Source: Porpolomopsis calyptriformis
Lineage: Eukaryota > Basidiomycota > Agaricomycetes > Agaricales > Hygrophoraceae
DNA length: 64,000 bases
Direction: 5' to 3'
Assembly: GCA_951640195.1 (NCBI GenBank)
Contig: OX621171.1
Span: 1,302,001-1,366,000 of the forward strand
A model generated the notes under the pieces. That model did no database searches. It was not told the origin of the DNA and saw nothing but the letters and a program-made list of their open reading frames with translations. Position 1 is the stretch's first letter. Every line of letters starts with the position of its first letter. Positions 18,480 to 62,207 of the stretch are shown piece by piece. The translations under genes and the position numbers were made by a program.

Positions 18480-18690
18480 TGTCACAACTGTAGTTGCAAG
18501 TCTTTTTGTTGATCACAAGGCAAGCTTTGGAGCTTAATAAATCCAAGAGGATATAGAAGAAGGTTCTGACAGGAATGTCTTCGTAAAGGGTGATAATTCC
18601 TTCGGAATGAAGTTTGACTTCCATGAAGAAATTCTGTTGTAGGTTAAATCTGTTTCGTGCCTCTGCTGAGAGTTTAGGGAATATAGGCAT
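18480..18690 (-). CDS. GL-1 terminal ORF (partial, runs off the element end)
   Basis: ATG at 18688-18690 opens a 70-codon frame ('MPIFPKLSAEARNRFN') that has no stop before the element end. A TATA element (TTTATATAG on the complement, about 18830-18840) lies upstream in the same orientation. All four GL copies place this ATG exactly 211 nt from the end. It contains FFYILLDLLSSKACLVI, a hydrophobic segment. Function unknown; it may be the start of a gag-like protein of the parent element. Confidence 0.55.
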
Positions 18691-19196
18691 GAACAGTTGG
18701 CTTTAATGATTCTAAGTTTGTGTTTCTCTTTCCTTGTTCTGATGGAAAGGAAGTCTGATGATTCTGATTGCGTTCGTGCTACTACAAGTAATCTCATAGG
18801 AGGATGAAGTGATGATCTGCTTCGCCCTCAGGGTTTATATAGTATTTCTAAAATAGGAGTCATTATGAGTCAGCCTCCATAGTCACCCCATTTTCTATTG
18901 TTCACAGCCTCCAATTAAGGTTTGCTATTGTTCCTAGTCATACTGCATAAGGCTGTGTGCTTCTGGTGACTTGATTCTATTGGGTATAGCCTTCTGCAGC
19001 ATGGGCTGTGTTATCTCATGACCAGTTCCTATTGTTCTCCTGGTCATGAGATCACTGTTGTTTCTATCTCTTTCCCGGCATATCAGGTTTCTCTTCTTTA
19101 ACTGAGGAAGCTTCTTTTGGTCCTCCCTTTGTCTGTAGGCATATAAAAGCTGCAGGGTTGTATCCCTATCCTTCAGTTCATTCTTCATCAATCATT

Positions 19197-19995
19197 ATGA
19201 CTCCCTCCCACCAAGGCCACTATGTTTAATTCTTTAAGCAGTCTGGGGTTGTGCATGGCACTACCCCTGTCTTCCTTGACTGCGATTCATTCCATTACTA
19301 CCTTCAGCGTATCCCTTCTGACACCAACCTCTGTTGGTCTTCCTTCTCCTGCTTCACTTGCAGTGGCAAGCATAAAGTCAAGAAGTGTCTGTTCGTTTGC
19401 TGGCCAATCCAGCATGCTTGCAGTTTGATGGAGGATCTGCTTGGTAAGTCCTTTGTTTTGTCTTTATTAGTCTTTGTTTGTTGATAATGGGCTTCAGCTT
19501 GGGATGATGACGCCCCTCCCCCTACTTCCCAGCTCCCTTTGGAGGAGCAAGTTGATTGGAGTTCTGATCATTAGGGGTGCCCTCCCCCCTTTGCCGGCCC
19601 CAAGCCTGAGTACTGGGCTGCCAGTCCCTCCTTCCATCCTTGGACCCCTAGTCCAAGTCCCATTTCTAGTTATAAGCTCTAAACTCTCTCACTCTCTTTT
19701 ATGTTTGTTGACTCCTCATCTCTCAGTGGAAGATCTATTGATGTCGTTGACCAACATCAATGTCAAGATTAAGGAGGAAGAAGTTCCTCCCAGTTTGTTG
19801 TGGAGTCCTACCAATGATTGGTTGGGTGAGGAAGCAAGAAAGATTGCGATAAGTTTTGTCGAGGGGAAGGCTGCTGAGTTGCAGGCTTCTGGTGGAGATA
19901 CTAATGGGGCAATCTATTGGGGTAACAAGTTGGCCGCGTTAGATGGTCAGGTAGTCTCAAGTTTCATGGAGTTTTTGAGGGATAGCATGGTGTAG
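19197..19995 (+). pseudogene. GL-1 antisense spliced gene (decayed)
   Basis: This is the same three-exon gene as in GL-4. Exon 1 starts at ATG 19197 and has TAA at codon 11 (19227-19229); the donor GTAAGT follows at 19444 and exon 2 begins about 19498. Exon 2 is shortened and the second donor (GTAATG in other copies) is changed. The zinc-knuckle-like motif is partly altered ('CFTCSGKHKVKKC'). It ends near the TAG at 19993-19995. Confidence 0.7.
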
Positions 19996-20949
19996 GGACC
20001 TTGAGGGGGAGCAGGAGTGGTCTTGATGTTTTGAGAACCAGAAGGGACACCAGTTTGGGATTCTTGAGATATTGATAACTTAGTTGTTTGAGGAAAAGGT
20101 AATGAGGTAGAAGAGTGGAGTGATTATTGGGGAGTAGCAAAAGTTAGTAGTTGGTAGTAGTCTTTGGATTCTGTTTTAGAAAAGATGGATCATATAAATA
20201 GGTAATCCTCCAGAGTGAGAGAGTTAGGATGTGTAAGAAGGAAGTTTGATTTTTATTATATTCTATTATCAGTGGGACTTGGGGTTTTACTTTAAATACT
20301 GGCTGAGTAGGCCTGAGATAGGAGAAAGAGTTCCAATGATAGAATTGGGTGCTAACTAGGAACCAAACTTAACTATCTACTAACTATGACTAAGTGTTTA
20401 TACTACTAGGTAACTATATAAGTCAGAGATAAGAAATAATCTAAGTTAGTGGAATATAGAATGTGACTTGTGAAGAGCTAGCAGAACAATAAAGGAAATA
20501 GAAAGGAAGAGGGATGCAACTAGATAAGAAGACATGAGGTGGATAAAAGGAAAGCATGATCTAATCACAATAACTAAAGGATGAAAATGGAAAAGGTGTA
20601 AAAAATACAATCATGACACTTATATATTACAATACATCCTTATACACCATTTATTATAAGCTTTCTAAGGATGAATTTATATAAAGAATATTGGAAAATT
20701 ATATAAACTTACTAAACTTATAGTATTATATACCTATAGTACTATGAGCTAAAAATAATTCCAATATTTGGCAAGTTTGACCTAATGCTATTATATCCTT
20801 TGATATAAAATAGCTATAATTATAGGAATATTACAGAGGATAGCCCTTCATAATGGGTTTAAAACAAGCCCCCAAACATTAGGATTAGTATAGTATTTCT
20901 AGAGGTATTCTATTTTAAATCTAGTGATATTATTAAAATATTTATTTTA

Positions 20950-21290
20950 TTGAGAACTTCTACTAGTATTTAGTACGTGGTATAACCTTCCTTAGCCTTT
21001 AATACAGCTTCCCACATATCTAGGTATACTCTTCTATTTTATTCCACTCTACTTACACCCTTTCCTACAACTCTACAATTCTATTAGAGAGGATACCTTA
21101 CAGTTAGCTAACCTTCTTTTCAAGTTCCTCTAGAGATACTTAATAGGATTGAGATTGGGGGATTAGGTAGGCTATAAGAGGACTTCATATCTATAATCCT
21201 TCAACCACTTTTCAGCCTTCTTGTAGGTGTATTTAGAGTTATTATCTTGTTAGAAGTCTTCTAGCCTTATTATAGAATTGGATAGTTTCC
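20950..21290 (-). pseudogene. Tc1-type transposase C-terminal half
   Basis: The reverse strand reads 'QDNNSKYTYKKAEKWLKDY', then 'SPNLNPI', then 'RNLKRRLAN', matching the second Asp motif (QDNxPxHxS) and the Asp-Leu/Asn-Pro-Ile-Glu block of Tc1 DDE transposases. Stops fall where Trp and Gln are expected (WPTQSPN appears as stop-PT-stop-SPN), which points to G-to-A/C-to-T decay. The enzyme would cut and join at TA sites. Confidence 0.75.
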
Positions 21291-21394
21291 TATACTATTT
21301 ATCTTATTAGCTCTGGGAAGGTTAAAAATACTATGGAAGTTACTTAAATGCTTAGGAATATTACTAACTAACCTCTCTCTTCCCAAACTGTTTA

Positions 21395-21660
21395 ATAATG
21401 GCTTAGAAAGAAGTGGGGATAAAGGCTATAGTGAAGAAGAAAAGACCTTTACTCACTAAGAAGTATAAGAAGGAGAGAATAGACTTTACTTCAAGGTATT
21501 AACATTAGATTATAGAGGACTAGAAGAAGGTACTGTAGTTAGATAAAACTAAAATCAATTGCTTGGGATCAGATAGTAAGAAATAGGTATGGAAAAAAAT
21601 TAATAGACCTCTATATTAAGATGCTAGAGGAGGAACTTTAATAAATATTAGAGGTGGAAA
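21395..21660 (+). pseudogene. Tc1-type transposase N-terminal half, inverted
   Basis: The plus strand reads 'VGIKAIVKKKRPLLTKKYKK' and, about 90 bases later, 'TKINCLGSDSKK', the conserved stretch leading to the first catalytic Asp of Tc1 transposases. The first catalytic Asp block appears as 'L*LDKTKIN' and is full of stops. In the second copy (31978-32836) the same piece lies on the minus strand, collinear with the C-terminal half, so this copy carries an inversion. Confidence 0.65.
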
Positions 21661-22258
21661 GCTTTGAAGGATGTCTACTAAAAGACTTTTGAAGATCAGG
21701 GTAATATCTAGTGTATAATCTACAGATAGTAGTATAGGAAGTACTAAATTTAGGAGCTAGAATGATGTAATTGCAATTAGCAGTAGAAAGGCTTTTTATA
21801 ATAATAGTGGTCAAGTTCAACTAGTTAGTTAGGTTTATTTGTTACTATTAATATAATCTACAGCTCACTTTTGGAACCAAACATATTATAAACAGTCTTT
21901 ACCCCTAAGTTAAAGTATTATCTTTTCTAGATTTTAGTATCTTAGTAAAACAACTATTTCAATAATATTACCAGATTTAAAATAGAATATCTCTAGAAAT
22001 ACTTTACTGATTCTAATGTTTTAGGGCTTGTTTTAGACCTAAGATGAAGGGCTATCCTGTAATATTCCTATATTTATATCTATTTTATATTACAGGATAT
22101 AATAGCATTAGGTCAAACTTGGGATAGTTTTTAGCTTATAGTACTATAGGTATATAATACTATAAGTTTAGTGAGTTTATATAATTTTCCAATATTCTTT
22201 ATATAAATTCATCTTTAGAAAGCTTATAATAAATAGTGTATAAGGATGTATTGTTACA

Positions 22259-22453
22259 TATGAGGAAATTATATAGATCATATTACTAGTTAACTTGCTC
22301 TAAGTTGTTAAGGGTATAGTTATCAAGGTGTCTAAGGTTAAGCAAGTATGTTCTGCAGCTTATATAAGCAGATCTATAAGGAAATAGTCAGTTTTATATA
22401 GATACTAATATTACAACCCCTATTAGTTAAGCCTTAACCTACCTCTGCAATAG
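22259..22453. repeat. Inverted repeat IR-L bounding the PIF/Harbinger locus
   Basis: About 195 bp that recur in reverse complement at 31785-31977. The outer ends (TGAGGAAATTATATAG) abut a mariner TIR with TA at both places, so the total inverted match extends to about 0.5 kb. It may be the terminal repeat of the Harbinger element or an older repeat duplicated with it. Confidence 0.65.
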
Positions 22454-28467: not shown

Positions 28468-28678
28468 TGTCACAACTGTAGTTGCAAGTCTTCTCATTGA
28501 TCACAAGGCAGGCCTTGGAGCTTAATAAGTCTAAGAGGATATAGAAAAAGGTTCTGACAGGAACGTCTTCATAAAGGGTGATGATCCCTTCCATGTTAAG
28601 TTTGACTTCTACAAAGAAGTTCTGTTGTGGGTTAAATCCATTATGTGCCTCTGCTAAGAGTTTTGGGAAAATAGGCAT
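28468..28678 (-). CDS. GL-2 terminal ORF (partial, runs off the element end)
   Basis: ATG at 28676-28678, 70 codons open to the terminus ('MPIFPKLLAEAHNGFN' ... 'EKTCNYSCD'). It reads on into the Harbinger gene without a stop for another 15 codons, which is chance. Same 211-nt spacing from the terminus as in the other copies. Confidence 0.6.
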
Positions 28679-28867
28679 GAACAGTGGGTTTGGTAATAAT
28701 GGGTTTATGTTTCTCTTTTCTTGTTCTGGTGGAAAAGAAGTCTGATGATTCTGATTGCGTTCGTGCTACTACAAGTAATCTCACAGGAGGATGAAGTGAT
28801 GATCCGCTTTGCCCTCAGGGTTTATATAGTATTTCTAAAATAGGAGTCATTATGAGTCAGCTTCCGC

Positions 28868-29236
28868 TGTTATGTTGGCAGTCGATATCTCAGGTCACTT
28901 GGATGAGGGACAACGAAGAGGCTAGCGCATAAGCTAGCAGTGACAACGTTGAAGGACGAAAACTGGGTATGTACAAGCATTCTGTGCACTACTTATATCT
29001 ACCCAGGTCTAGGCTGTGATTGTGATAGCCATGGTGACGATCCATGGAACGGCTGACTAATGCGCAGCACTGTATAGCCCTGCGCAGCTACTGCGGAGCA
29101 CATCTTCATCAGCCAATGGCGTTATCACCTCCAGTCTATGAAGAGATAAGATGAAAGATTAGATAAGGAGAAAGATAAGATTAGATAAGACCAAAAAGGA
29201 AAGTTGGTGGGACAACAAAATGAAGTGGCCGTAACA
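28868..29236 (-). repeat. Solo LTR (369 bp), diverged Gy-2 family, in GL-2
   Basis: Begins TGTTATGTTGG and ends GCCGTAACA, with TSD tccgc at 28863-28867 and 29237-29241. It aligns with the Gy-2 LTR throughout, including the ctacttatatctacc TATA region, but is clearly diverged. Orientation is as in Gy-2 (element sense on the minus strand). Confidence 0.92.
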
Positions 29237-29560
29237 TCCGCAGTCACCCCATTTTCTATTGTTCACAGCCTCCGATTTAAGGTTTGCCATTGTTCCTAGT
29301 CATACTGCAGAAGGCTGTGTACTTCTGATGACTCAACTCTATTGAGCATAGCCTTTCCGCAGTATGAGATTGTGTTGTCCCATGACTGGTTCCTATTGTT
29401 CTTCTAGTCATGAGATCGCCATTGTTTCTATCTCTTGCCTGGCGTATCGGGTTTCTCTTCTTTAACTGAGGAACCCCTTTTTGGTCCTCCCCTTGTTCAT
29501 GGGCATATAAAAGGTGTGGAGTTGTATCCCTATACTTCAGTTCAATCCTTGTTAATCATC

Positions 29561-30405
29561 ATGACTTCCTCCCACCAAGGCCACTATGTTCGATTCTTCA
29601 AGCAGTCTGGGGTGGTGCACCGCACTGCTCCTGTCTTCCTTGATTGCGATTCTTTCCACTACTACCTTCAGCGCACCCCTTCTGATGCTGACCTCTGTTG
29701 GTCCTCCTTCTCTTGTTTTGCTTGCGGTGGCCAGCACAAAGTTAGGAAGTGTCCGTATGTTTGCTGGCCGATCCAGCATGTTTGTGGCTTGATGGAGGAT
29801 CCACTTGGTATGTATCTTGTTTTGTCTTTATTAGTCTGTGTTTGTTGATAATAGGCTTTCCCTTTCTTAGCTTGGGATGATGACGCCCCTCCCCCTACTT
29901 CCCAGCTCCCTTTGGAGGAGCAGTTTAATTGGGGGTCTGACAAGTGGGCTGACTCTCTTCCTTCTATCAGGAGGGAGGCAGTTGACTGGGCTGCCAGTCC
30001 CCCCTTCTGTCCTTGGACCCCTAGTCCATTAAGTCCTTTATCTAGTGGTAATGCTCTCAACTCTCTCGCTCTCTTCGTAACTGCTGATCCCTTATCTTTT
30101 TAGTTGAAGATTTGTCCTTGTCATCGACCAATGTTAATGTCAAGATTGAGGAAGAAGAAGTTCCTCCTAGTTTGTTGTGGAGTCCTACCAACAATTGGCT
30201 AGGTGAAGAGGCAAGGAAGATAGCGATGGGTTTTGTCGAAGGGAAGGCTGCCGAGTTGCAAGCCTCTGGTGGTGACACTAATGGGGCAATCTATTGGGGT
30301 AATAAGTTGGCCACTTTAGATGGTCAAGTAGTTTCTAGTTTCGTAGAGTTCTTGAGGGACAGATGGTGTAGGAGATTGCCAAGACAGACTAGTTTAGGTA
30401 TTTAG
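29561..30405 (+). pseudogene. GL-2 antisense spliced gene (frame lost near the end)
   Basis: Exon 1 29561-29807, intron 29808-29870 (GTATGT..TTAG), exon 2 29871-30047, intron 30048-30103 (GTAATG..TTAG), exon 3 from 30104. The zinc-knuckle-like motif CFACGGQHKVRKC is present in exon 1. The reading is open through two introns but an indel near 30360 changes the last residues. A TATA box (CATATAAAAG, about 29503) lies some 50 nt before the ATG. Confidence 0.7.
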
Positions 30406-30537
30406 TCGGACATGGACCCCCTCCTTGTGCAAATAGCCTCTGCTGCCAATAAAGACAGCCCCCTTCCAAAGAGAACAGTTATAGAAAAGAAAGGAAAAGA
30501 AAGGAATTTTAAGAGAGTGAACACCAATTTCATGACA

Positions 30538-31784: not shown

Positions 31785-31977
31785 CTATTGCAGAGGTAGG
31801 TTAAGGCTTAACTAATAGGGGTTGTAATATTAGTATCTATATGAAACTTACTATTTCTTTGTAGATCTGCTTATATAAGCTGCAGAACATACTTGCTTAA
31901 CTTTAGACACCTTTATAACTATACCCTTAATAACTTAACAAGTTAACTAGTAATATAATCTATATAATTTCCTCATA
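31785..31977. repeat. Inverted repeat IR-R bounding the PIF/Harbinger locus
   Basis: Reverse complement of 22259-22453. Its right end (CTATATAATTTCCTCA then TA) abuts the left TIR of the second mariner copy. Confidence 0.65.
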
Positions 31978-39300: not shown

Positions 39301-40350
39301 TCGCAGTGGAGATTGCAAAATGAGCACATGTATTTCCTGAAGATCTATCTCATTGGGACGTCGACCCCATAAAAGTTACAAATGCAACGGGAGATGATTT
39401 GCGACGATTACTTGCCTGGAAATCGCAAATGCAAAGAGAGGTTTCAGAACAAAACAAATCGATTTATGCGCTCAAAGTTGACGACGAAGCTAGCGTGATG
39501 AGAATGATGCCCACTAATCTTGACGCGGCAGTATGCCATGTCCCAATGAATGACGAACCAGTCGAAGATCCTAATTCAGAGGTTGCCTTACCTCCCATCG
39601 ACGTTTCACAACTTAACCCTGATCAATTGAGAGCTTACCACATTATACGTTGGCATCTTGAGGAAACTCTCGCTGGAAAAGCACCACCTCCCCTTCGCAT
39701 GATAATGTACGGTGAAGGAGGCACTGGAAAATCGAGAGTTATCCAAACTGTTACCAAAACGTTTCGTCAAAAAGGAGTATCTTACATGCTCATAAAAGCT
39801 GCCTATATGGGTATTGCAGCATCATTAGTGAACAGAAAAACAACACATTCTATAGGACAATTCTCACTCCGTTCTATGACAACGATCAGTGAAGAAACGA
39901 AAGCCAAATTACAAGTTTTTTGGCGTAATAAATCGTACCTGATAATCAATGAATATTCCATGTTATTGAAAACGTTTCTGGCTCATCTATCCCAGAATAT
40001 CGCAATCGGCACAACGCAATCTGATCATCAAAATGATAATTCATTTGGCGGAATCAACATAGTCTTATGCGGAGACTTACATCAATTCCCTCCCGTTGCT
40101 TTATCTATTCGAGAAGCACTATTCCAACCTATAGATCCCTTTGACTCCGTGAATTCGCAATTGGGTCATGCCATTTATAGAGAATTCCGTACTGTGGTCA
40201 TTCTAAAGGAACAACATCGCGTAACTGATCCTATCTGGAAGGATTTTTTACATCATCTCAGATACGGGAACATACAAGAAAATCACTTACGTATGTTAAA
40301 GAAACAAGTCATAGGGAATCCTGAATCAACTCCAATTGATTTTAACTCGC
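39301..40350 (+). pseudogene. Helitron Pif1-type helicase, N-terminal part
   Basis: Open reading with 'NPDQLRAYHIIRWHLEET', Walker A GEGGTGKSR (about 39712-39738), a Walker B block that reads LIINEYSM with Asn (39948-39950) where Asp is expected, and 'LCGDLHQFPPV' (about 40070-40100), then 'ILKEQHRV'. It would unwind the displaced strand. GL-3 interrupts after 'PIDFNSL'. The Asp-to-Asn change alone should abolish ATP hydrolysis. Confidence 0.88.
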
Positions 40351-40508
40351 TGTCATGAAATTGGCATTCACTCTCTTAAAAATTCCTCTCTTTTCTTCGT
40401 TCTTTTCTTTTCTTTGCCTGTTCTCTTTGGAAAGGGGGCTGTCTTTATTGGCAGCGGAAACTATTTATACAAAGGAAGGGGGAGTCCATGTCCGACTAAC
40501 TATCTAAA

Positions 40509-41345
40509 CTAGTCCGTCTTGGCAATCTCTTGCACCATACTGTCCCTCAAGAACTCTACGAAACTTGAGACTACTTGACCATCTAATGCGGCCAACTTAT
40601 TACCCCAGTAAATTGCCCCATTGGTGTCACCACCGGAGGCCTGCAACTCGGCAGCCTTCCCTTCGACGAAACCCATCGCTATCTTTCTCGCTTCCTCACC
40701 CAACCAATCGTTGGTGGGACTCCACAACAAACTGGGAGGAACTTCTTCCTCCTTGATCTTGACGTTGACGTTAGTCAACGACAATGACAAATCTTCGACT
40801 AAAAAAGGCAAGGAAATCAGCAACTACGAAGAGAGCGAGAGTGTTGAGAGCATTACCACTAGACAAAACACTCAATGGACCAGGGGTCCAAGGACGGAAA
40901 GGGGGACTGGCAGCCCAGTCAACTGCCTCCTTCTTGATGGAAGGAAGAGAGTCAGCCCACTTGTCGGACCCCCAATTGACCTGCTCCTCCAAAGGGAGCT
41001 GGGAAGTAGGGGGAGGGGCGTCGTCATCCCAAGCTAAAAAAGAAGGAAAGCCTATTATCAACAAACATAGACTAATAAAGACAAAACAAGACACATACCA
41101 AGCGGATCCTCCATCAAGTCACAAACATGCTGGATTGGCTAGCGAACATACGGACACTTTCTGACCTTATGCTTGCCACCGCAAGCAAAACAAGAGAAAG
41201 AGGACCAGCAGAGGTCGGCGTCGGAGGGGGTACGCTGAAGGTAGTAGTGGAAAGAATCACAATCGAGAAAGACAGGAGCGGTGTGGTGCACCACTCCAGA
41301 CTGCTTGAAGAATCGGACGTAGTGGCCTTGGTGGGAAGGAGTCAT
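40509..41345 (-). pseudogene. GL-3 antisense spliced gene (one nonsense codon)
   Basis: Exon 1 41345-41099, intron 41098-41034, exon 2 41033-40857, intron 40856-40799, exon 3 40798-40509; exon lengths 247, 177 and 290 are the same as in GL-4. A TAG replaces Trp shortly after the zinc-knuckle-like motif (about 41139-41141, TGG-to-TAG); otherwise it is open to the natural stop. Confidence 0.8.
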
Positions 41346-41851
41346 GATGATTGACAAGGATTGAACTGAAGCGTAGGGATACAACCCCACACCTTTTATA
41401 TGCTCAGACACAAAGGGAAGACCAAAAGGAGGTTCCTCAGTCAAAGAAGAGAAACCTGATACGCCGGGCAAGAGATAGAAACAACGGCGATCTCATGACC
41501 AGAAGAACAATAGAAATCAGTCATGAGATAACACAGCCTCATTCTGCGGAAGGCTATGCCCAATAGAATTGAGTCATCAGAAGCACACAGCCTTTTGCAG
41601 AATGACTAGGAACAATGGCAAACCTTAATTGAAGGCTGTGAACAATAGAAAATGGGGTGACTGCGGAGGCTGACTCATAATGACTCCTATTTTAGAAATA
41701 CTATATAAACCCTGAGGGCGAAGCGGATCATCACTTCATCCTCCTGTGAGATTACTTGTAGTAGCACGAACGCAATCAGAATCATCAGACTTCTTTTCCA
41801 TCAGAACAAGAAAAGAGAAACATAAACCCATAACTACCGAGCCAATCGTTC

Positions 41852-42062
41852 ATGCCCATATTCCCTAAACTCTCAGCAGAGGCACACAACAGATTCAACT
41901 CGCAGAACAACTTCTTTGTAGAAGTAAAACTCAAATCAGAAGGAATCATCACCCTTTACGAGGACGTCCCCGTCAGAACTTTCTTCTACATCCTACTAGA
42001 CTTATTAAGCTCCAAGGCCTGCCTTGTGATTGATGAAAAGACTTGCAACTACAGTTGTGACA
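41852..42062 (+). CDS. GL-3 terminal ORF (partial, runs off the element end)
   Basis: ATG 41852, 70 codons to the terminus ('MPIFPKLSAEAHNRFN' ... 'TCNYSCD'). It has its own TATA box about 150 nt upstream. It is closely similar to the other three copies and has no internal stop. Confidence 0.6.
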
Positions 42063-42067
42063 CTCGC

Positions 42068-43037: not shown

Positions 43038-43055
43038 CCTTGCAAGCAAGGTAAC
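43038..43055 (+). other. Helitron 3' terminal hairpin and border
   Basis: CCTTGCAAGCAAGG (43038-43051) is a perfect 6-bp stem with a 2-base loop, followed by TA and then the ambiguous AC (43054-43055). The arm sequence continues with TAACTACTTATTGG. Confidence 0.7.
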
Positions 43056-43410: not shown

Positions 43411-43542
43411 GTATCTCCCTCGAGACCACATACTGGACTTGACCATATTTGGTAATGACTAAGAAACTGGAGTTTAGGAATGTAGCAGAATCTCAGAGAA
43501 TCATTGGAGTTTGAAATCAGAATATATATAATGGGGTCCAGC

Positions 43543-43754
43543 TGTAAGAGTTCTTGATCTTGCAGTGCTTACAACCAGCTGGATATAACCAATATCTATT
43601 GGATATGTGTAAACCTGGTGTAAGCAGTGGCAAGATATAAAAAGAACTACCTAAATAAGGGTAAATACTACCTATATACTGCTCTCTAGTACAAACACCA
43701 ATACAGAAGGACTACATCCCTAATGTACACACTGTAACAGTAATATCTGTTACA
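43543..43754 (-). repeat. LTR-N-type LTR in the left arm
   Basis: 212 bp, plus text TGTAAGAG..CTGTTACA, related to the LTR-N repeats and exact partner of 54011-54222 in the other arm. The purine tract complement (tcctccctcacc) follows. About 320 bp of adjoining interior is kept to about 44077, ending with 'gtgattctacatg', a motif also near 23310. No second LTR: a truncated copy fused into Gy-A. Confidence 0.8.
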
Positions 43755-44077
43755 TCCTCCCTCACCAGATTAACCCAAGGGGTTCAATCAATCAAGAAGA
43801 GCCTGAAATAAAGGCTTTGAAAACATACATCAGAATCAAGACATGATCCTGAACAATATATACATTCTGAAAAATATATATATTTCTCATAACACTACTC
43901 TGCATCATGTACATTTATTAGTTGTATAGCTCAGCTCTGCTTCGCTATACTACCAGTATTCCCCTACCGAATTAAATCACAGGGGTTAAACCTTCCCCTC
44001 CAAAAAATATTATTCTCAGAGGGCACACATGTGATTCTACATGGTGCCAATCTTCTCTAGAATTGGGAGTTGCTTGA

Positions 44078-49589: not shown

Positions 49590-52589
49590 GATTTTACTTG
49601 TCTTGTATAATTTTGTAGCCTTTAGTCTTTTCTTCTTTAAAAATTGTATTTCTGTCTCTAGAAAAATGAAAGGACTTGAAATGAAAAAAAAATATTGCAT
49701 AGAGGTGCATTATGGCAGGTTACAAGTCCTCGATCACAATGCTATCAAGTGGTTTGCTAGTTAGCAAACATTCTATGTCTCTAAGTTATGAAGTCGATAT
49801 GTCGAGGAATTATTTGGGAATTGCAATCAATCTTTGAGTGAAGTATGGGATGACTCTAAATGCAGTGATTGGATGGTGTAAGGTGGATCTGTCAAGCTCT
49901 GTGATGATATAAGCTTTTCCTAGGTTTCAAGATATCATGACTAGGGGTCCTAGGTATTGAGGATGCATCTTTCAATTGAGAGACTTCTTGATTTTCGTGT
50001 TCCGAATGAGTATGAGATTGCCAGTTTTGAAGTTGTAGTTGCGAATGGTTTTCTCGTGTCTCTTCTTGAATTGAATGGCAGATTGTAGGTGAGCAGTGAG
50101 AACCTTCAATTGAAGTTGCTCTAAGTCAGAATCTCGTTTCTGTAGAGCAATCGCGTGTTGCAATATTAGATTAGTCATTGAGAGAACCGAATCTGGAGTG
50201 GGAAGGAGATATGTTGCTTTGGAAATATCTAAAGGTAGCAATGGCTGAGATCCAGTGACAGCGAAGTAGGGTGAGCAGCCCAGTCGCTTTCAGGTAGTGA
50301 CATGCTCAGCCTAGAATACAGAGTAGGCTCTGATAGACTATTGCTTCTGATCACCATCGATGGCTTTGAATAGTGATTGTCATATGTCAAAGTGAGATTG
50401 TTCAACTATGTTACATCCCAGTTCCGACAACTCTGACAACTCCGAACACTCCAGACTTTTCACATGTTTCCTACTTATGATGTCCTCTATTGTCACTATG
50501 TCTCAGATATAATTATCTAGCAGGTATATAAGTACTGCATTTTTTCCTGTATCTGTAGACAGAATATTGACTAAGTCCCAATGTTTATCCAACTCTGATC
50601 TCTGAATTCAGCTCTGAAACTTCAGACCTAACAGACTATTCCATTTGTTCGAGAGTTGTATCCGCTGATGTGAATGTGGTTGATTTGATAGTGCTTAGTA
50701 AGGTGATATACAGCTCCTAAGAAGGCTATTCCATTGTCCATCCTGATTTCTCAAAGAGAGCCCCAGCGACAGATTATATCCTTGAAGATCCATTCACCAA
50801 TTGATTTCGCTGTTTCCAATCAAAGCATTCGAAATTCGGGATAGTAGGTGAGGGAGCATTGTCCTTGAACTATATATTGAAATGGACCAGATCAGGGCAT
50901 GTGCATAGTGTCAATGTAGATTTTGGCAAATAGGGGAGCTGGCATGGAGATGGTTAGAGGGACAAGGGCTTGCATAGTTTGGCAGACCTGACAGGTATAA
51001 CACATCCAAATGAACCAGACTATGTTGGGGGCCATATGGGGCCACCAGAAGTGTTCGGAAATGATTGATCGAGTAGTGAAAATAGCCTTGTAGCCTGTTC
51101 AATCATAAAGTTCCATCATGATTGCTAATCAGCAATCCAGATTGATGACTAATTTGTGGGCGCCTTGTCTATCCTTTTGCCATAGTCAATCATTATCGAT
51201 AAAGAACTCTTTGCAGTATTGTATAAAACTCGCATAGTTATTATCGGACATGTTGCTTGGTTGTTCGAGATCTAAGAGCCACTTTCAAATGAGGATAAGT
51301 TGTTGATCATCTTGTTGAGCTGTTTCTGATTGTGGAATGATGTTGTAGGAATCTGTATGTGGATGGATAGGGTCCTCCTCCTCCTCACTGAAATGTTTAC
51401 TCTGCGAGTAAACTGAGGTGGGTGATTGGAGGGTTTTTGTTCAGGGCACAGGTGAATTATTGATATGGTGCATTAATCTGTAGATGCGATCAATCCAATC
51501 ATTGAAGTCTTTATCAATCAGCTCCTTGTTGATTTGGTTATCAGGCTGTTAGGGGCATCGAGAGAGACTGTCAGGACCATAGTTCGATCCAGCGACATGT
51601 ACCAAAGTAAAATGGAATGTGAGGATCGCTACAATCCATCTGTTATTACTAGCTTGGGGTGCACTGTCTGGGTTCACTAGCATTCCTTTGATATAGCAAG
51701 TGTCGACTTCTATAATGAGGTTTTAAACACCGATGAGGTATAGTCGAAGTGATCATAAGGCTCAATAGAGACTGTAGATTTTGAGTTTTGGTTGAGAGAA
51801 CCTTCTTTCTCGATCATTCAATGTGATCAAACCAAAATGATTATAGTACCTTTTCTTCAGGTTATCAGAATCGCATTGGTACAGGTGAAAGCTAACAGCA
51901 ATATAGGAGTTGTCAATGGTGAGTATTACAGGGGCATCAGAAGTATAATCAAGGACTCGTAGAGTGGGCAATTCTAGATGGGCTTGTTTTAGGTCCTCTT
52001 AAGCAGCAAGCCAATTGGGACCGAATTTGAAGGGCATATCTTTCCTAGTGAGCTTAACTAGGTGGTGTGCTTGATGTGTGAAGTTGCAAATGAAAATTCG
52101 AATGATGCCGATAGTGCCAAGGAAGGCTCAAACTTCAGAGAGGTCTTTACAGGGACCCCAGTTTTGGATTGCAGATACGCGTGATTCATTGGGTAGTTGT
52201 CCTAAGTGAGTACATTGATGTCTAAGAATAGTGGTTTCTTCTGCACATAAGAACAATTTATAGCCTGACATAGTTCTGCTACAATATTTCATTCGCTGGA
52301 CTATTCAATTGAGATTCCCAAAGTGTTCCCACAGGAATCGTTAAATTCCATCATTCTCTGGAATCATTTCATAGGATCCATCAGGTAATACATATTGAGT
52401 TACAGGACCCTTTACAGGGATATCATCGATATAGGGGATCATAAACTCAGGAATCTCCAGTTGGAGGATATAGGTGACATTGTCATGAAAAACTGGCACA
52501 GAATTTGTCCATCCCATAGGTAGAGTAACTAGTCAATAAGCTCCATAGGGTGTTTGGAATGTGGTTAGATCACGAGATAAAGGCGCAAT
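49590..52589 (-). pseudogene. Gy-G pol: RT, RNase H, integrase (broken)
   Basis: Reading leftwards from 52589: RT ('APLSRDLTTFQTPYGAY', 'LPMGWTNSVPVFHDN', active-site region 'MIPYIDDIPVKGP', about 52420-52450), connection ('FLGTIGIIRIFICNFTHQAH'), RNase H ('APVILTIDNSYIAVSF', 'NDRERRFSQPKLKIY'), integrase, and the C-terminal piece also found at 1-333. The 'YIDDIPVKGP' type is a distinct gypsy lineage common in Agaricomycetes. Dozens of stops. The RT amino-terminal part is missing: at 52590 the sequence switches to the right duplication arm. A solo LTR is inserted at 50409. Confidence 0.82.
50409..50633. repeat. Solo LTR (225 bp) in Gy-G
   Basis: TGTTACATCCCAG..ACCTAACA. Flanks aacta (50404-50408) and gacta (50634-50638) differ by one transition. 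The first 50 bp resemble the Gy-A LTR start, so it is a short relative of that family. A TATA-like gtatataag is at about 50524. Confidence 0.85.
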
Positions 52590-52591
52590 CA

Positions 52592-53709
52592 TGGAAAATC
52601 AAAGATGTCCAGTTGTTCCTAGGTTTTGGAAATTTCTATAGGCATTTTATCAACAATTACTCAGGATTGGTAGCTCCACTTACGCGACTAACCTGGAAAA
52701 ATGTTCCATGGAATTTCAATACTCAATGCAAATTTGCATTTGAATCCTTGAAACAGGCCTTCACTTCTGCTCCTGTTCTTGTCAACTTCACTCTGGGATC
52801 ACATCTGATAGTAGAAATGGATGCCTCCAACTATGCCATAGTAGACATTCTGTCAACTTATGCCAATGATGAATCATTACATCCTATTGCATTTTATTCT
52901 TGGACTTTAACTCCACAGGAGTTGAATTATGATGTCCATAACAAGGAACTATTAGCTATTCATGATAGTTTTCATAACTGGTGACATTACCTTGAAGGCT
53001 CTTCTGACCCAATTGATGTTGTTACTGATCACAAGAATTTGGTATACTTTTCTATAACCAAACTCTTGTTATGACGTCAAGCTTGTTGGTCTGAATTTTT
53101 GTTAGGCTTTAATCTCATTATTCGTTTTCATCCTGGAAAACTCAGAGCAAAACTGGACTTTGTAATACGTCGATATGATGTCAACCCTAAAGAGGGAGAT
53201 AGTAACTATGCCAGTATTAATCCTCAAAATCTCCAACCAGTTTTTACCTCAGAGCAACTGGCTTCATCCCTATGGGCTTTATCCTTATTAGATCTAGTCT
53301 TAAAAGCTGCATTTGTTATGGATGTTGACTCCCTTCATTCAGGAATTTATAGTTCACTCTGTGATGATCCAGTGGCTATTGAGCATCTAAAGGTTGTGGA
53401 ATCCAACTCCAATCCCAACTCTAATCTCTAATGGACTATCAACACTTCTGGCTTCCTTCATTGTGATTGTCATATCTACATGCCCAATGTAGATGACTTA
53501 CAACTTCAAATTCTGCATATAAAACATGATCATCTAATTGCTGGTCATTTTAGTCAAAACAAAATGCTTGAATTGATTTGATGGGAATACACTTGGCCTG
53601 AACTCTGGACATTCATAAAGGATTACTGTAATTCCTGTACTATGTGCACTAGGTCCAAAGTCCCTCACCATCAACCTTATAGTTTACTCAAGCAACTCCC
53701 AATTCTAGA
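52592..53709 (+). pseudogene. Gy-A pol piece: RT end, RNase H, HHCC
   Basis: Same protein as 44078-45175 read on the plus strand ('KDVQLFLGFGNFYRHFINNY', 'VEMDASNYAIV', 'PNVDDLQLQILH', 'CNSCTMC'). Stops at 52982, 53072, 53429, 53579 and elsewhere. It ends at about 53709, fused to the LTR-N-type fragment. Confidence 0.85.
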
Positions 53710-54010
53710 GAAGATTGGCACCATGTAGAATCACATGTGTGCCCTCTGAGAATAATATTTTTTGGAGGGGAAGGTTTAACCCCTGTGATTTAATTCGGTA
53801 GGGGAATACTGGTAGTATAGCGAAGCAGAGCTGAGCTATACAACTAATAAATGTACATGATGCAGAGTAGTGTTATGAGAAATATATATATTTTTCAGAA
53901 TGTATATATTGTTCAGGATCATGTCTTGATTCTGATGTACGTTTTCAAAGCCTTTATTTCAGGCTCTTCTTGATTGATTGAACCCCTTGGGTTAATCTGG
54001 TGAGGGAGGA

Positions 54011-54222
54011 TGTAACAGATATTACTGTTACTGTGTGTACATTAGGGATGTAGTCCTTCTGTATTGGTGTTTGTACCAGAGAGCAGTATATAGGCAGTAT
54101 TTACCCTTATTTAGGTAGTTCTTTTTATATCTTGCCACTGCTTACACCAGGTTTACACATATCCAATAGATATTAGTTATATCCAGCTGGTTGTGAGCAC
54201 TGCAAGATCAAGAACTCTTACA
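54011..54222 (+). repeat. LTR-N-type LTR in the right arm
   Basis: 212 bp, TGTAACAG..CTCTTACA, preceded by the purine tract GGTGAGGGAGGA and about 300 bp of interior (from about 53710). Partner of 43543-43754. Confidence 0.8.
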
Positions 54223-54354
54223 GCTGGACCCCATTATATATATTCTGATTTTAAACTCTAATGATTCTCTGAGATTCCGCTACATTCCTAAACTCCAGTT
54301 TCTTAGTCATTACCAAATATGGTCAAGTCCAGTATGTCGTCTCAAGGGAGATAC

Positions 54355-54854
54355 TGTTACATCCCAGTTCCAACAACTCCGAACACTCTGGACTTTTCAC
54401 ATGTCTCTTACTTATGATGCACTCTATTGTTATCATGTCTCAGATATGTCACAGTCATAATTTTTCATCTTCTCTTCTCTTATCTCCATGTAAACCTTTA
54501 TCTTATCTTGGGATTCCCCATTACCTTCCTTATCTCATCTTGGGATTCCCCATTACCTTTTCTTGGGATTCCCCATTACCTTATCCATATATGGACTCAT
54601 TTCATTCCCATCTATGTTTCATCACCTTATGATTTGTCATCAATCATGATGACTCACCCTTATCTCTAACTCATATTATGTTGCACTGACTCATACCAAT
54701 AAGTAGTTAGTATATAAAGGGGACCTCTTGTATGTATCAGACCTTAAGTCTGATTCCTCATTAGCTACCCAATAACAAGGACTTGGAACCATACTTTAAC
54801 TTTTGGGACAGAACACCTGAAGTAAAATGTGTTTTGAACAACTGGTTTATAACA
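54355..54854 (+). repeat. Gy-A 3' LTR (500 bp)
   Basis: TGTTACATCCCAG..GTTTATAACA. A TATA box (TATATAAAG, 54711) is 35 nt before AAGTCTGATTCC (54746), the same predicted start 11-mer as in Gy-1. It contains a triplicated 'cttgggattccccattacc' block at about 54508-54580. It directly follows the Gy-A 3' sequence, so this is the 3' LTR; the left-arm copy is split by the Helitron. Confidence 0.88.
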
Positions 54855-55358: not shown

Positions 55359-55369
55359 TCACTCTCCCT

Positions 55370-58300
55370 TCAGGATCGCGTCCGCGTGGGGTTAGTATAG
55401 ATGTTGGGGGTGTCTTGAACAATCTCGTAGGGGCCAGCGGGGAGTGTAACAAGGGATGACAGGGAGGTAATAACTGTATCATTGTTGGATATCCAAGGCC
55501 GAAAGGGGGAGCGTGAGTTGGTATGTGTGAAGCACTTGGCCACGATCATCCAATCGTACAATGAGAGTGACCACATTGACTGGGCCTTCCTCATAAATCC
55601 AGACACGACGTACAAAGGAGGGGAGATGAGGGAAGAGAATGGAAGCATTGAAGTCAGAATCCAGAGCACGATCAACTTCAATAGGTGTGAGCGGGACAAT
55701 GACATCGATGTTGTCAGACATTGTTGGCGGTTTGTAGCCTTCACCGTATGAATCAGTGACTGGATCATAGAGATGGTCATCGATGCTGAAGAAATCGTCC
55801 ATACGGATGACACGGATCTGAAGTCTCAGGGCTGGTCATTTCGGGTTCAGAACATGGAACTCATCGACTAGTTCTTGGGCATGTGCAACATCGGATGCGG
55901 ATTGCCAAGTATTCTCTTTGTTAGTGTAGCCCTCCCAATGCACTAAGTATTGGAGCTGCTTTTGATGGATTCGGGAATCCAAGATTTTCTCAATGACGTA
56001 TTTGGTTTCACTGTCCAACTGGAGAGGAGGGGGAGGAGGGGGAGCTTTTTGGTTTGGGAAGGAGGAATGATGGTAGGGGGACAAGTAAGATTTGTTGAAG
56101 ACTGGATGCAAGCCCATCCATTCATGGGGGAGTTCGAGTCAGTAAGCTGAACGACCAATTTTCTTAATGACCTTGAAGGGTCCAAAGTGTTTATTGTCAA
56201 GTTTCTTCATTGTGCAATTGGTCTTGATGTTCGTAGCGGCAAGCCAGACTTTGTCTCCAGGGGAATACTCATGAACAGGTCGGGATCGTTTATCATGGCT
56301 AGTCTTCATCTTCTCATTGGCTTGTCCAAGGGCAGATTCAGTCTCTTGATGGACATGTTTCATTCGCTCAGTGAACTGGGTAGCGGACTCATTCTGGACT
56401 TCTCTTTGGGTGTCGTTTCCGGACCAGGGATGTTGACCATAATTGACATAGAAAGGAGTTTGAGCGGTAGCGGCATAGATGGAATTATTGTACGAGAATT
56501 TGGCCAACGCCAACCATTCTTTCCAGTTATCCTGACAGTCATTGATGAAAACCCGTAAGTATTGTTCGAGGGTTTGATTCATTCGTTCGGATTGGCCATC
56601 AGTCTGTGGATGATAGGCAGTGGAAACGTTTTGGGTGGTGCCTAAGAGGCGGAAGAGATCAGTCATGTACTTGGATACAAATCACGGATCGCGATCATGA
56701 ATGATTCATCGAGGGACTCCATGATCCCAGATAATGCGATCTCGAATAATCTTGGCGAAGCCTTCCAAGTTGAGCTCAATATGTGTGGGCTCGAACTTGA
56801 CAGCCTTCGAGAATGTGTCAACAATGGTCAGGACAGCATTGTAGCCCTGGCATTCGGGGATTGGTCCCATGAGGTCAACAGTAATTGTGTCCCAAGGGTG
56901 AGCTGGGGGATCGAAAGGATGGAGTGGGGTCTTCACGGGCAAGCAAGATGCCTTGGTTCACTGACAGGTCTCACAACCAGAGATGTACTGTTTCACATCT
57001 CGATGGATGGTAGGCCACCAGTAATCATGACAGAGGATTTCGGTAGTCCTAAAGGGGCCATAATGCCCTGACAGGGGGTTGTCGTGATACTGAGAGATGA
57101 TTTCTCTATGAAGGGGCTTGTCAATGGAGACATAAATCCAATCGTTGAATGTGAGGATACCGTCGTTTTGGGTCTTCCAATCGTTTTCTGGTTTTCTACG
57201 AGAGAGTGTAATGGAATCTTCTTTGTTCTGGTAGGAATCCTTGATGCGTAAATGAAAGTGGTTGGGTTCAACATCGAGTCGGACTAGTCGGACGTCTATG
57301 ATGGGGTGAGAAGAAACAGAAAAAAGAGAGTTGGGCAAAAGAATCATGTCGTCATTGTCATCCACCCCCCTTTCAAATCCTGGTCGCCTCGACAGGATGT
57401 CAGCCTTCGAGTTGGCCTTACCAGTGACATGATGAAGGGTGAAATGAAAGTCTTGCAACTCTGTGAGCCAATGAGCTTGACACCTATTGAGCTTCTGTGG
57501 CTTCTTGAAGTACTGCAGGTTGGCGTGGTCAGTCCAAACCTCAAAGACTTGCTTGGTAGACAACAAATGCTTGCGAAACTCTTGCAGAGCGGTCATTATC
57601 GCGAGGAGTTCGCGATCATAAATTTGATAATTTCGTTCTGCAGGACTGAATGATTTCGAGAGGAATCCAATGGGCTTCCAGATGTTTTCTTGTTTTTGTG
57701 AGAGTATAGTACCCAGAGCGTATTCAGAGGCATCAGTCTCGATGCGAAGTAAGTCGTGATCATTAGTAATAGAGAGAACAGGAGCAGAAGTAATGATTGT
57801 CTTGAGAACGTCGAAGGTGTCCTGGCATTGATCAGTCCATTCGAAAGGAGTGTTCCCAGTTAAGATGTTAAGGGGGCGTGCGATACCAGCAAAGTGGTGA
57901 ATGAAGCAATGGTAAAAGTTGCAAAATCCAAGGAAGGACTGAATGTCACGTTGCAGGTCGGGGTTGGCCAATCGGTGATACCTTGGACCTTGATCGGATC
58001 CATCTTGACTTGGCCTTCGGAGACAACGACTCCAAGATACTCCACTTGTTCTTGGTCGAATTCACATTTATCAGGCTTGAGGTAAAGTTTGTGTTCGCAA
58101 AGTAGGGACATAACTTCATAGACATGCCAATGATGCATCTTGAGATCCTTGTTAAAGATCAGTATATTGTCGATGTAAATCAATACATGGCCTTGGTGGG
58201 TCTGAATGTGGAAGATATCATTCATCATTGTTTGGAAGGTTGCAGGTGAGTTCGTGAGTCCGAAAAACATAACCAAGGGTTCGAACAAGCCACGGTTGGT

Positions 58301-59751
58301 TCTGAATGCAGCCTTGTGTTTGTCACCTTCCCTGATGCGAACATTGTTGTAACCCCAATGGATGTCCAACTTGGTGAAATAGTGGGCATTCTGCAGGGTG
58401 TTGATGAGTTTGGTGATCAAAGGGAGGGGATAGCGGTTCTTAATGGTCATGTCGTTCAGCTTTCAGTAATCCTGGATCGGGCGTAATCGACCATCTTTCT
58501 TCTTGATGAAAAAGACGGGGAAGTGATGGGGGAGATGGAAGGGTGAATTTGTCCAGTTCGGAGATTCTCTTCAAGGAATTCATCAAGTTGCGAATGTTCA
58601 TCCACACTGAGGGGATAGATCTTGCAATTGAGTTTCTCTTCGGTTCCGGGGAGTAATTCGATTGCATGATCCCAAGGGCAAGGTGGTGGTAGTTCGTTGA
58701 AGTCTTTCTTGGTGAAGACGTCTTAGAATTCGTGAAGATAATTGGGGACAATGTCTTTCCAATCGCGGTCCTTCCTCTGGGCCTCAGCAGCTTTGATTGC
58801 AAGTTCCTGCGACTTAGTAGTCATCAACCGGATCTGGATAGCAGGAGCGAGATCGATCATAAGGAGATGATCCTCATCCTCCTGAGTGAGGTTGTTGATG
58901 TTGAAGGAATCGACAGAGGGATGACAGTCTGGGGGGTATCGATTGAAGTCGAGAGTACCAGCCTTCCAGTCCACGGAGGGATTGTGGGTCTTGAGCCAGT
59001 CATGTCCGAGGAAAACTTGTCCCTGGCCAAGATTGGTTATACTGAAATTGATCCTTTCCACATGAGTTCCGACTTGTAGCTCAAGAGTGACCATTTCTGT
59101 GATGGGGCCTTCAGTGTTGGGTTGACCATTAGCATTATGCACAGGGATTGGTCGAGCTAGAGGGGTTGTGTGGAGATCGTGATCTTGGACGTACTTGACA
59201 TCAATGCAGGAGCCTTCACATCCGCTATCAATGAGAGTGGTGGCAGTATGCTCTGCACGATTGTCCAAAGTGACAAGATGAGCTTTGAGGGTGAGTTGAT
59301 TTCCTTTGGAGCCACGAACAAAGACGTGAGGTTGTTTGAGTTCGTTCAGGGCTCGAATGGCATTCTCCAGGGTGAGGGCAGTGATTTCATTGATGGTGGA
59401 TTGTACCATCTCGCGTGAGCATGCTGGATGTGACCAGTGTTGAAGAATAGAAATTGCAAAATTAGCATTGCCCTTAATAGCATTAACAATGTCTAGAGGT
59501 GTTGAAAGAGAGTTGACGTTGATCGATTTGACAGAAAGAGACAGTGGTTTGGGAGCAGGGATTTTGGGGTGTTCAACATGTTCATTCGGCAGATTAGTCT
59601 TCAGAGTTTGTGGGGAAATGACGGGGGTATTGAATTCGGGTGTATCATGTACTGTACATGCCATCGTAGTAGATAAAGGAGAAATGTCCAATACTAAAAT
59701 GTTCTGCCAAAGCAAACAGCTGCCAGTCGAGTGAAGGGAATGCATCTTCAT
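55370..59751 (-). pseudogene. Gy-3 pol: protease, RT, RNase H, integrase, chromodomain
   Basis: ATG 59749-59751 overlaps the gag TGA. Protease DSG is intact ('TLIDSGCEGSCID', about 59215). RT has YIDN in place of YIDD (Asn codon 58166-58168). RNase H 'IETDASEYALG', integrase 'AYHPQTDGQSE', chromodomain 'YLVHWEGYTNKENTW' (about 55900-55950) and a C-terminal extension follow. The frame changes near 58500-58720 and near 57960, and stops occur near 58722, 56660, 56140 and 55834. The last conserved segment (ending 55370) lies in the +1 frame, as in Gy-2. Confidence 0.9.
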
Positions 59752-60626: not shown

Positions 60627-60837
60627 TATCACAACTGTAGTTGCAGGTCTTCTCATTGATCACAAGGCAGGCCTTGGAACTTAATAAGTCTAAGAGGATA
60701 TAGAAAAAGGTTCTGACAGGAACATCTTCATAAAGGGTAATGATTCCTTCTGTGTTAAGTCTGACTTCTACAAAGAAGTTCTGTTGTGGGTTAAATCCAT
60801 TATGTGCCTCTGCTGAGAGTTTATGGAATATAGGCAT
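60627..60837 (-). CDS. GL-4 terminal ORF (partial, runs off the element end)
   Basis: ATG 60835-60837, 70 codons ('MPIFHKLSAEAHNGFN' ... 'NYSCD'), stop only in flanking DNA. Upstream TATA on the complement of about 60868-60875. Same layout as the other copies. Confidence 0.6.
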
Positions 60838-61230
60838 GAACAGTGATGATCCGCTTTGCCCTCAGGGTTTATATAGTATTTCTAAAATAGGAGTCATTAT
60901 GAGTCAGCCTCCACAGTCACCTCATTTTCTATTGTTCACAGCCTCTAGTTAAGGTTTGCCATTGTTCCTAGTCATACTGCAGTAGGCTGTGTGCTTCTGA
61001 TGACTCAGTTCTATTGGGCATAGCCTTCCACAGTATGGGGCTGTGTTGTCTCATGACTGGTTTCTATTGTTCTTCTAGTCATGAGATTGCTATTGTTTCT
61101 ATCTCTTGTCCGGCATATTGGGTTTCTCTTCTTTGCCTAAGGAACCTCCTTTTGGTCCTCCCTTTGTGTCTGGGCATATAAAAGGTGTGGGTTATATCCC
61201 TATGCTTCAGTTCAATCCTTGTCAATCATC

Positions 61231-62062
61231 ATGACTCCCTCCCACCAAGGCTACTACGTCCAATTCTTCAAGCAGTCTGGAGTGGTGCACCGCACTGCTC
61301 CTGTCTTTCTCGATTGCGATTCGTTTCATTACTACCTCCAGCGCATCCCCTCCGACGCTGACCTCTGTTGGTCTTCCTTCTCCTGCTTTGCTTGCGGTGG
61401 CAAGCACAAAGTCAAGAAGTGTCCGTTCGTTCACTGGCCAATTCAGCATGCTTGCAGCTTGATGGAGGATCCGCTTGGTGAGTACTTTGTTTTGTTTTTA
61501 TTAGTCTGTGTTTGTTGATAATGGGCTTTCCCTTTCTTAGCTTGGGATGATGATGCCCCTCCCCCTACTTCCCAGCTCCCTTTGGAGGAGCAGGTTAATT
61601 GGGGGTCCGACAAGTGGGCTGACTCTCTTCCTTCCGTCAGGAAGGAGACAGTTGACTGGGCTGCCAGTCCCCCCTTCCGTCCTTGGACCCCTGGTCCATT
61701 AAGTCCTTTATCTAGTGGTAATGCTCTCAACTATCTTGCCCTCTTTGTAACCACTGATCCCTTATCTTTTAGTTGAAGATTTGTCCTTGTCGTCGACCAA
61801 TGTTAATGTCAAGATTGAGGAAGAGGAAGTTCCTCCTAGTTTGTTGTGGAGTCCTACCAACGATTGGTTAGGTGAGGAAGCGAGAAAGATAGTGATGGGT
61901 TTCGTTAGAGGGAAGGCTGCTGAGTTGCAGGCCTCAAGTGGTGACACTAACGGGGCAATCTACTGGGGCAACAAGTTAGCCGCATTAGATGGTCAAGTAG
62001 TTTCGAGTTTCATAGAGTTCTTGAGGGATAGTATGGTGCAGGAGATTGCCAAGACGGACTAG
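61231..62062 (+). CDS. GL-4 three-exon gene, 237 aa, intact
   Basis: Exons 61231-61477, 61541-61717 and 61773-62062; introns 61478-61540 (GTGAGT..TTAG) and 61718-61772 (GTAATG..TTAG). The spliced length 714 nt is 238 codons with TAG at 62060-62062. Residues about 46-64 hold a Cys/His cluster ending CFACGGKHKVKKC (C-x2-C-x3-H-x4-C, one residue shorter than a retroviral zinc knuckle). Exon 2 is acidic and Pro/Trp-rich; exon 3 has 'NDWLGEEARKIVMGFVRGK' and 'TNGAIYWGNKLAALDGQ'. A TATA box (TATAAAAG, 61177) precedes the ATG by 54 nt. Not recognised; nucleic-acid binding is the only inference. Confidence 0.75.
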
Positions 62063-62207
62063 TTTAAATAGTTAGTCGGACATGGACCTCCCCTTCTTGT
62101 ATAAATAGTCTGCTGCCAACAAAGATAGTCACCTTTGAAAGAGAACAGGCATAGAAAAGAAGGGAAAACAACAGAATTTCAAGAGAGTGAATGCCAATTT
62201 CATGACA

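Follow-up and report, generated by a model that had tools for sequence, protein, structure and literature searches.

A 1.7-kb long terminal repeat of a Ty3/gypsy chromodomain element in Porpolomopsis calyptriformis with a predicted spliced antisense gene under purifying selection

The usual view of long terminal repeats (LTRs) is that they supply promoter and processing signals, and that solo LTRs are scars without genes. Among the closest described systems, the RNA of Tf1 has its first 11 bases complementary to its own primer binding site (PBS), as given in the accessible part of PMC7175516, and self-priming has been proposed for Tj1 (accessible part of PMC4600332). A regulator encoded within an LTR is exemplified by Naf, from the unique 3' (U3) region of mouse mammary tumour virus (MMTV), as stated in the available portion of PMC9412291. 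Here, a 64,000-nucleotide stretch of Porpolomopsis calyptriformis DNA (assembly GCA_951640195.1, contig OX621171.1, positions 1,302,001 to 1,366,000 of the forward strand), referred to as the window, was analysed for GL, a repeated unit. An earlier note on this DNA had described four GL copies and offered two models, a very long LTR with a spliced antisense gene in its U3 or a self-contained mobile gene cassette. GL proved to be an LTR of ~1.7 kb that belongs to a Ty3/gypsy chromodomain retrotransposon; the element class is ordinary, the LTR is unusual. The best overall explanation, to which we give a probability of roughly 85%, is that this LTR belongs to a Tf1-like, probably self-priming element and carries a selected three-exon antisense gene in its U3.

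GL as the repeat of a chromodomain element

The copy GL-3 (40351..42062, + strand), a complete solo LTR of 1712 bp whose sense orientation is that of the window + strand, was used as query against the source genome (33.5 Mb, 17 contigs). At least 39 full-length matches were found including GL-3 itself, the 38 others being 90-98% identical; this number is a lower bound, as scoring covered only 40 of the 294 first-look candidates. The check proposed in the earlier note, a search for direct GL pairs around gag-pol, gave a positive answer, since pairs in direct orientation lie about 7.05 kb apart in the source genome. They enclose gag (PF03732), protease, reverse transcriptase (RT), RNaseH, H2C2/rve integrase (IN), SH3_Tf2-1 and Chromo domains, with their sense on the GL-3 + strand; this order was read from Pfam matches on separate open reading frames (ORFs) of two elements, L010 and L011. 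A genome search with one internal region as query yielded nine near-complete internal regions and further fragments. Nine elements were examined for their borders: the seven with both LTRs complete all have identical 5-bp target-site duplications (TSDs), and in the remaining two the 5' LTR is truncated and the outer 5 bp do not match. Divergence between the two LTRs of an element, over the nine, ranges from 0.005 to 0.030 (Kimura two-parameter distance, K2P). Moreover, the polypurine tract GGGAGGGGGTAA, or a similar one, is found immediately 5' of the TGTCA of the 3' LTR in GL elements.

As the earlier note had observed, no internal element region accompanies any of the window copies. Because the same GL sequence bounds gag-pol elements with matching TSDs, these copies are solo or truncated LTRs. 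The TSD-flanked borders recur elsewhere in the genome: outside the window, 47 solo-like copies were found, 46 of them with complete ends, and 40 of these 46 have perfect 5-bp duplications. Two of the solo-like copies (L008 and L031) share flanks and look like a single insertion that was duplicated.

Only 11 of the 120 RT relatives listed carry an organism name. Eight of these 11, which we take to be Agaricomycetes, are from Moniliophthora (twice), Psilocybe, Phlebia, Lyophyllum, Ganoderma, Pleurotus and Trametes, at 50-57% identity; the other three are from a fish, a plant and a bacterial bin. Among the relatives listed, the closest RT matches reach 61-65% identity. Nine related gypsy stretches were also sampled in the genome, eight of which have terminal direct repeats of 367-480 bp and the ninth none. 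When three GL elements (L009, L010 and L011) were compared, the IN-chromodomain region had 119 silent differences, versus 19 in RT-RNaseH, 8 in gag and 5 in protease, an excess that suggests recombination between element lineages.

The antisense gene, the sense frame and priming

The coding content of GL was assessed on an alignment of 64 LTRs. Of the 69 that gave a match, five (W1, W2, W4, L016 and L023) were dropped for truncation or length, which left GL-3 and 63 others; the 64 are not all independent, some pairs coming from one element, and are biased to copies similar to GL-3. Their differences from GL-3 are mostly transitions, and C-to-T or G-to-A changes at CpG account for 1214 of about 8080, as expected of methylation-linked decay.

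The predicted antisense gene lies on the - strand of GL-3. Its TATA box (41394..41400) is identical in all 64 aligned copies. Exon 1 (41099..41345, 247 nt) starts with the ATG at GL-3 position 995, is Cys/His-rich in its product and carries one nonsense codon in GL-3. Intron 1 (41034..41098, 65 nt) and intron 2 (40799..40856, 58 nt), which enclose exon 2 (40857..41033, 177 nt), are both bounded by GT-AG in 64 of 64 copies. Exon 3 (40509..40798, 290 nt including the stop at GL-3 position 159) is the most constrained, with a ratio of non-synonymous to synonymous change (omega) of 0.20, and an AATAAA is present past the stop (40444..40449, GL-3 positions 94-99) in 55 of 64 copies. In 39 of the 64 copies the whole spliced frame reads open, and 37 of those encode exactly 237 residues. 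It also reads open in the window copy GL-4, where the exons lie on the + strand at about 61231-61477, 61541-61717 and 61773-62062. In a more distant LTR subgroup B (six fetched copies and the window copy GL-1; 83-86% identical), the exon frame is kept with different intron lengths, which supports the intron calls.

In a frame-by-frame scan of 210 windows of the alignment, the strongest constraint fell on two blocks of a single antisense frame and on one sense frame at the LTR end. Among variants present in at least three copies, the antisense coding sequence (CDS) has 85 non-synonymous and 124 synonymous changes (omega 0.33, z 8.2), the wrong frames give omega values of 1.52 and 2.13, and nonsense variants are depleted (4 versus 9.6 expected). 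Constraint is weaker or mixed in doubletons (omega 0.65; nonsense 5 versus 2.6 expected) and in private changes (omega 0.43, z 3.9; nonsense 5 versus 4.3 expected), in keeping with mainly neutral decay once a copy has inserted. The list of indels common to at least three copies has 28 entries: a single one, of 3 nt, is coding, 10 are in the two introns and 17 elsewhere. The same contrast between frames is seen over 15 LTRs of full elements, where omega is 0.38 in the antisense CDS and 1.38 and 2.0 in the wrong frames. In the comparison of three elements, omega is 0.25 (z 8.1) for the antisense CDS and 0.19 for the IN-chromodomain region; the values for RT-RNaseH (0.58), gag (0.5) and protease (0.83) are each based on few changes. 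The reading of these frames as chance ORFs was rejected on the codon-level selection seen in both the antisense and the sense frame. Taken together, these features make it very probable that the anatomy of the element is as described and that the putative antisense protein is under coding selection.

On the sense side, a TATA box (41702..41708, + strand) is likewise identical in 64 of 64 aligned copies. The LTR part of the sense ORF (41852..42061, + strand) has its ATG at GL-3 position 1502 and runs for 70 codons to the LTR end; it is open in 62 of 64 copies and shows 18 non-synonymous and 32 synonymous changes (omega 0.28, z 4.6). In full elements the ORF continues for about 97 codons into the internal region, overlapping the start of gag in another frame. 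This internal stretch shows weak selection (omega 0.50, z 2.0), and the ORF is intact to the common stop at 4 of 12 junctions (L009, L011, L073 and the diverged L081). For the two divergent TATA-driven genes described earlier, both promoter boxes were borne out and both frames show purifying selection, but the sense gene is not contained in the unit: the LTR holds only the 5' portion of an ORF, which runs on into the element.

No tRNA-like PBS was evident at the LTR junction on inspection by eye. Two nucleotides past the 5' LTR lies AGGACGAAGTG, the exact complement of the 11-nt CACTTCGTCCT. In 33 of the 64 LTRs this 11-mer follows the sense TATA box, 30 nt from the first base of the box; CACTTCATCCT, a form with a CpG-type change, occupies this place in 23 LTRs, and neither form is found in 8. 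At the junctions, 12 of 14 sites were located by exact string, and the first 15 nt are identical in 11 of those 12. Out of 5330 internal 11-mers of one element, the LTR contains the complement of four; for one of these, the site 2 nt after the LTR, this complement is located 20-75 nt past the sense TATA box. Two tests on GL-3 alone were negative (none found in the first, a 6-mer elsewhere in the second) because the GL-3 primer carries the CpG-type change, and the test over all copies found the match. Together with the Tf1 and Tj1 precedent, the 11-nt complement places the presumed RNA start near GL-3 position 1382, so that the candidate RNA 5' end and self-primer CACTTC(G/A)TCCT would lie at 41732..41742 (+ strand), 30 nt from the TATA start, in GL-3 in its CpG-type changed form. 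With the TATA box and this primer as guides, the U3 of GL-3 would extend over 40351..41731 (+ strand, about 1381 bp). The priming of GL elements is probably Tf1-like self-priming; the likeness to Tf1/sushi rests on the SH3_Tf2-1 Pfam match and the self-primer complement, with a deduced RNA start.

The 237-residue antisense protein is Cys/His-rich in the part encoded by exon 1. Residues H20, C29, H33, C52, C55, C64, H73 and C75 are kept in all 37 open 237-residue proteins, C46 and H59 in 36, H5 in 35 and H8 in 33, and exon 1 holds a CX2CX3HX4C pattern; this part may bind metal. The retroviral zinc knuckle motif is CX2CX4HX4C, so that the GL protein does not conform to it, and Pfam zf-CCHC is unmatched. 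TRP28 (PF04195) was not found in the protein either (Pfam, E<=1). A protein-database search with the spliced protein returned 362 candidates, none at E<=0.001, and one with an exon-3 profile scored 7994 candidates, none at E<=0.1; as prokaryote-style gene calling would miss or split a spliced gene, these two negatives argue only weakly that homologs are absent. The best match in a PDB sequence search had an E of 0.04 and was taken as chance. Among the nine sampled gypsy stretches and the window, the antisense protein was found at E<=1 only in the four GL copies and in a stretch at the edge of L090, which carries the GL sense ORF further along.

Several of our results weigh against this interpretation. 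Every GL copy compared comes from one genome, and the antisense transcript and its splicing are predictions from the sequence. The sense frame opposite the antisense blocks reaches z values up to 4.5, versus 5.9 for the antisense frame; we read this signal as a shadow, because stops occur in most of these sense-frame windows and the antisense frame has the higher score. In subgroup B, none of the seven copies is fully open in this gene model, and three of the seven have AT instead of GT as intron 2 donor. The sense ORF is broken in its internal part at 8 of the 12 junctions, and the self-primer is without exact complement in 31 of the 64 copies, in 23 of them through one CpG-type change. Finally, in Pfam nothing matched the antisense protein at E<=1, and its CX2CX3HX4C pattern fits none of the zinc knuckle families there; in the searches made, no function is supported by a family, a homolog or a solved structure. 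The structures that AlphaFold predicted for exon 3 and for exon 1 (mean pLDDT, the predicted local distance difference test, 48.5 and 44.7) are too poor for use.

Possible roles of the antisense protein

Because the gene lies in U3, it would be copied into both LTRs in each replication cycle, and it would stay behind in the solo LTRs left by LTR recombination. Because it is antisense, its introns are no introns of the genomic RNA and would survive reverse transcription. We infer both steps from the anatomy of GL and from known LTR replication. The Cys/His-rich product might bind nucleic acid and serve the element as an accessory regulator acting in trans, with LTR transcription or the RNA/Gag particle as its target, akin to the accessory proteins of complex retroviruses. 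A regulator is proposed for these reasons: the gene is served by a conserved promoter box of its own, some 300 bp away from that of the sense ORF; its selection is integrase-like; its product is rich in Cys and His; and accessory proteins in comparable places can be regulators (Naf and HBZ). This is the least certain step, a tentative proposal by analogy that we rate somewhat below even odds. Its extended form is doubtful: here the LTR would be a portable regulatory gene whose zinc-binding antisense product controls the family in trans. Each insertion, down to the solo LTRs that outlast their element, would retain the gene complete and expressed, and the solo LTRs would serve as a genomic memory or dosage sensor.

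Other explanations of the antisense gene were also considered. The one that survives best, although we find it unlikely, is copy-number control, in which the antisense protein, in a dose that grows as LTRs accumulate (solo LTRs count too), would restrain the element much as Ty1 p22 does, but from a separate gene. The antisense gene can be complete in solo LTRs, and LTRs seem far more numerous than internal regions (294 first-look candidates versus nine near-complete ones, neither being a full count); there is also the Ty1 precedent (accessible part of PMC7175516). A self-limiter would, however, be harder to maintain by selection within the element lineage. Far less probable is that the antisense frame is coding but serves the host, the solo LTRs being domesticated gene copies. 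The constraint on private variants of the antisense CDS speaks for such a use, but private nonsense changes occur at about the expected number while shared ones are depleted, in keeping with mainly neutral decay, and 25 of the 64 copies are not fully open. Still less tenable is the idea that antisense transcription itself matters, through double-stranded RNA or interference, with an incidental reading frame: noncoding antisense LTR promoters and transcripts are known in other elements (accessible part of PMC7264820), but the strong codon constraint in one antisense frame and the near confinement of recurrent indels to introns and noncoding sequence largely refute it. The cassette, mobile independently of any LTR element, can practically be dismissed, for although every window copy lacks an internal region, GL forms paired LTRs around gag-pol with matching 5-bp TSDs, and solo copies are the expected leftovers of LTR-LTR recombination.

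A selected antisense gene within the U3 of a Tf1-like element thus remains the preferred explanation. A 1.7-kb LTR with a complete, predicted spliced gene under selection departs from the gene-less view of LTRs, and leftover single LTRs across the genome can still carry the whole gene. GL suggests a route by which an intron-bearing gene may ride a retroelement, that is, by antisense placement, and it makes testable the question whether solo LTRs act back upon their own family. It is also a warning for annotation: in such genomes, what is annotated as a repeated 'orphan gene' can belong to an LTR.

Setting in the window and comparison with known systems

GL-3 has TGTCA..TGACA ends and is flanked by a perfect 5-bp duplication, CTCGC (40346..40350 and 42063..42067). 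Its insertion site is the ORF of a Helitron PIF1-type helicase. The interrupted Helitron-type element (37334-42645) has Helitron_like_N at 37334-38302 and the PIF1 helicase at 39399-40355, and the two flanks of GL-3, when joined, give an open helicase-like frame. An ORF with DUF6570 (35422-36354, E 5.7e-39) perhaps belongs to the same Helitron region.

GL-2 (28468..30537, - strand) is a solo LTR with the same ends and a perfect ACTCT duplication; it is 2.07 kb long because another repeat of about 371 bp (28868-29238) is nested inside, which is also present at 5968-6360 and 12880-13270. The gypsy stretch 6536-13270 has direct repeats of about 391 bp (5968-6358 and 12880-13270), probably ordinary short LTRs, and is related to that at 55518-59751 (~74% identical over 3.8 kb). 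GL-4 (60627..62207, - strand) is a solo LTR with a single decayed end, TATCA, and flanks TCACC/TCGCC that match at 4 of 5 bases. GL-1 (18480..19996, - strand) is a truncated LTR: other copies align only to bases 1-1517 of the 2139 first assigned to it, and no above-chance GL match was found in the remaining 622 bases. The right border at 20618 was therefore rejected, the stretch up to it not being GL, and the TGACA found there and the CTCAC/CTTAT duplication are due to chance. The borders and duplications of the earlier note accordingly hold for GL-2 and GL-3, and for GL-4 with one base decayed at an end and one in the duplication, but not for GL-1. An element with inverted ends (~146 bp, 93%) occupies 20619-22264, beginning where GL-1 had been thought to end, and related stretches are found at 31785-32836. 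The window also holds an inverted 2.1-kb pair (43054-45178 and 52587-54711; 99% identity, 7.4 kb apart), the first arm of which has an ORF with RNaseH-type domains. An Rfam scan of the window gave no match reaching gathering scores.

In the case of Tf1/Tf2, Tf1/sushi and Tj1, the domain order with SH3_Tf2-1 and a chromodomain is common with GL. The complement of 11 nt between the presumed RNA 5' end of GL and its PBS has a counterpart described for Tf1 (accessible part of PMC7175516) and proposed for Tj1 (accessible part of PMC4600332). Unlike Tf1, Tf2 and Tj1, GL has a 1.7-kb LTR with a predicted spliced antisense gene and a sense ORF that begins in the LTR ahead of gag; its complement is 2 nt from the LTR, and it has several ORFs instead of one long frame, which is possibly in part the result of decay. 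The start of Ty1 TYA is in the LTR, a likeness to the GL sense ORF. Ty1 also has a restriction protein, p22 (accessible part of PMC7175516). It is a truncated Gag, whereas the GL protein would come from a separate antisense gene.

The plant Ty3/gypsy elements Grande (gene23), RIRE2 and Retand (TRP28) bear, like GL, a conserved accessory gene antisense to gag-pol, which in Grande has its own promoter. The available portions of PMC11963269 and PMC7264820 place these plant ORFs in the internal part of the element, in the interval that separates pol from the 3' LTR. The GL gene is not in that location; it lies inside U3 and is interrupted by two predicted introns, and each LTR of an element contains it, as do solo LTRs. 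Most of the coding sequence of HBZ, from human T-cell leukaemia virus type 1 (HTLV-1), is outside the LTR, whereas the GL gene is wholly within it. Like the GL gene, HBZ is an accessory gene in antisense orientation; its antisense promoter lies in the 3' LTR (same portions of PMC11963269 and PMC7264820).

A literature search on genes inside LTRs found MMTV Sag and no fungal case, most subscription papers being outside its scope. Sag is sense-oriented. Like the GL protein, Sag and Naf are accessory proteins encoded in U3 (available portion of PMC9412291). The GL gene differs from Sag in being antisense and, by prediction, spliced within the LTR, and in belonging to a fungal retrotransposon, whereas MMTV is a retrovirus.

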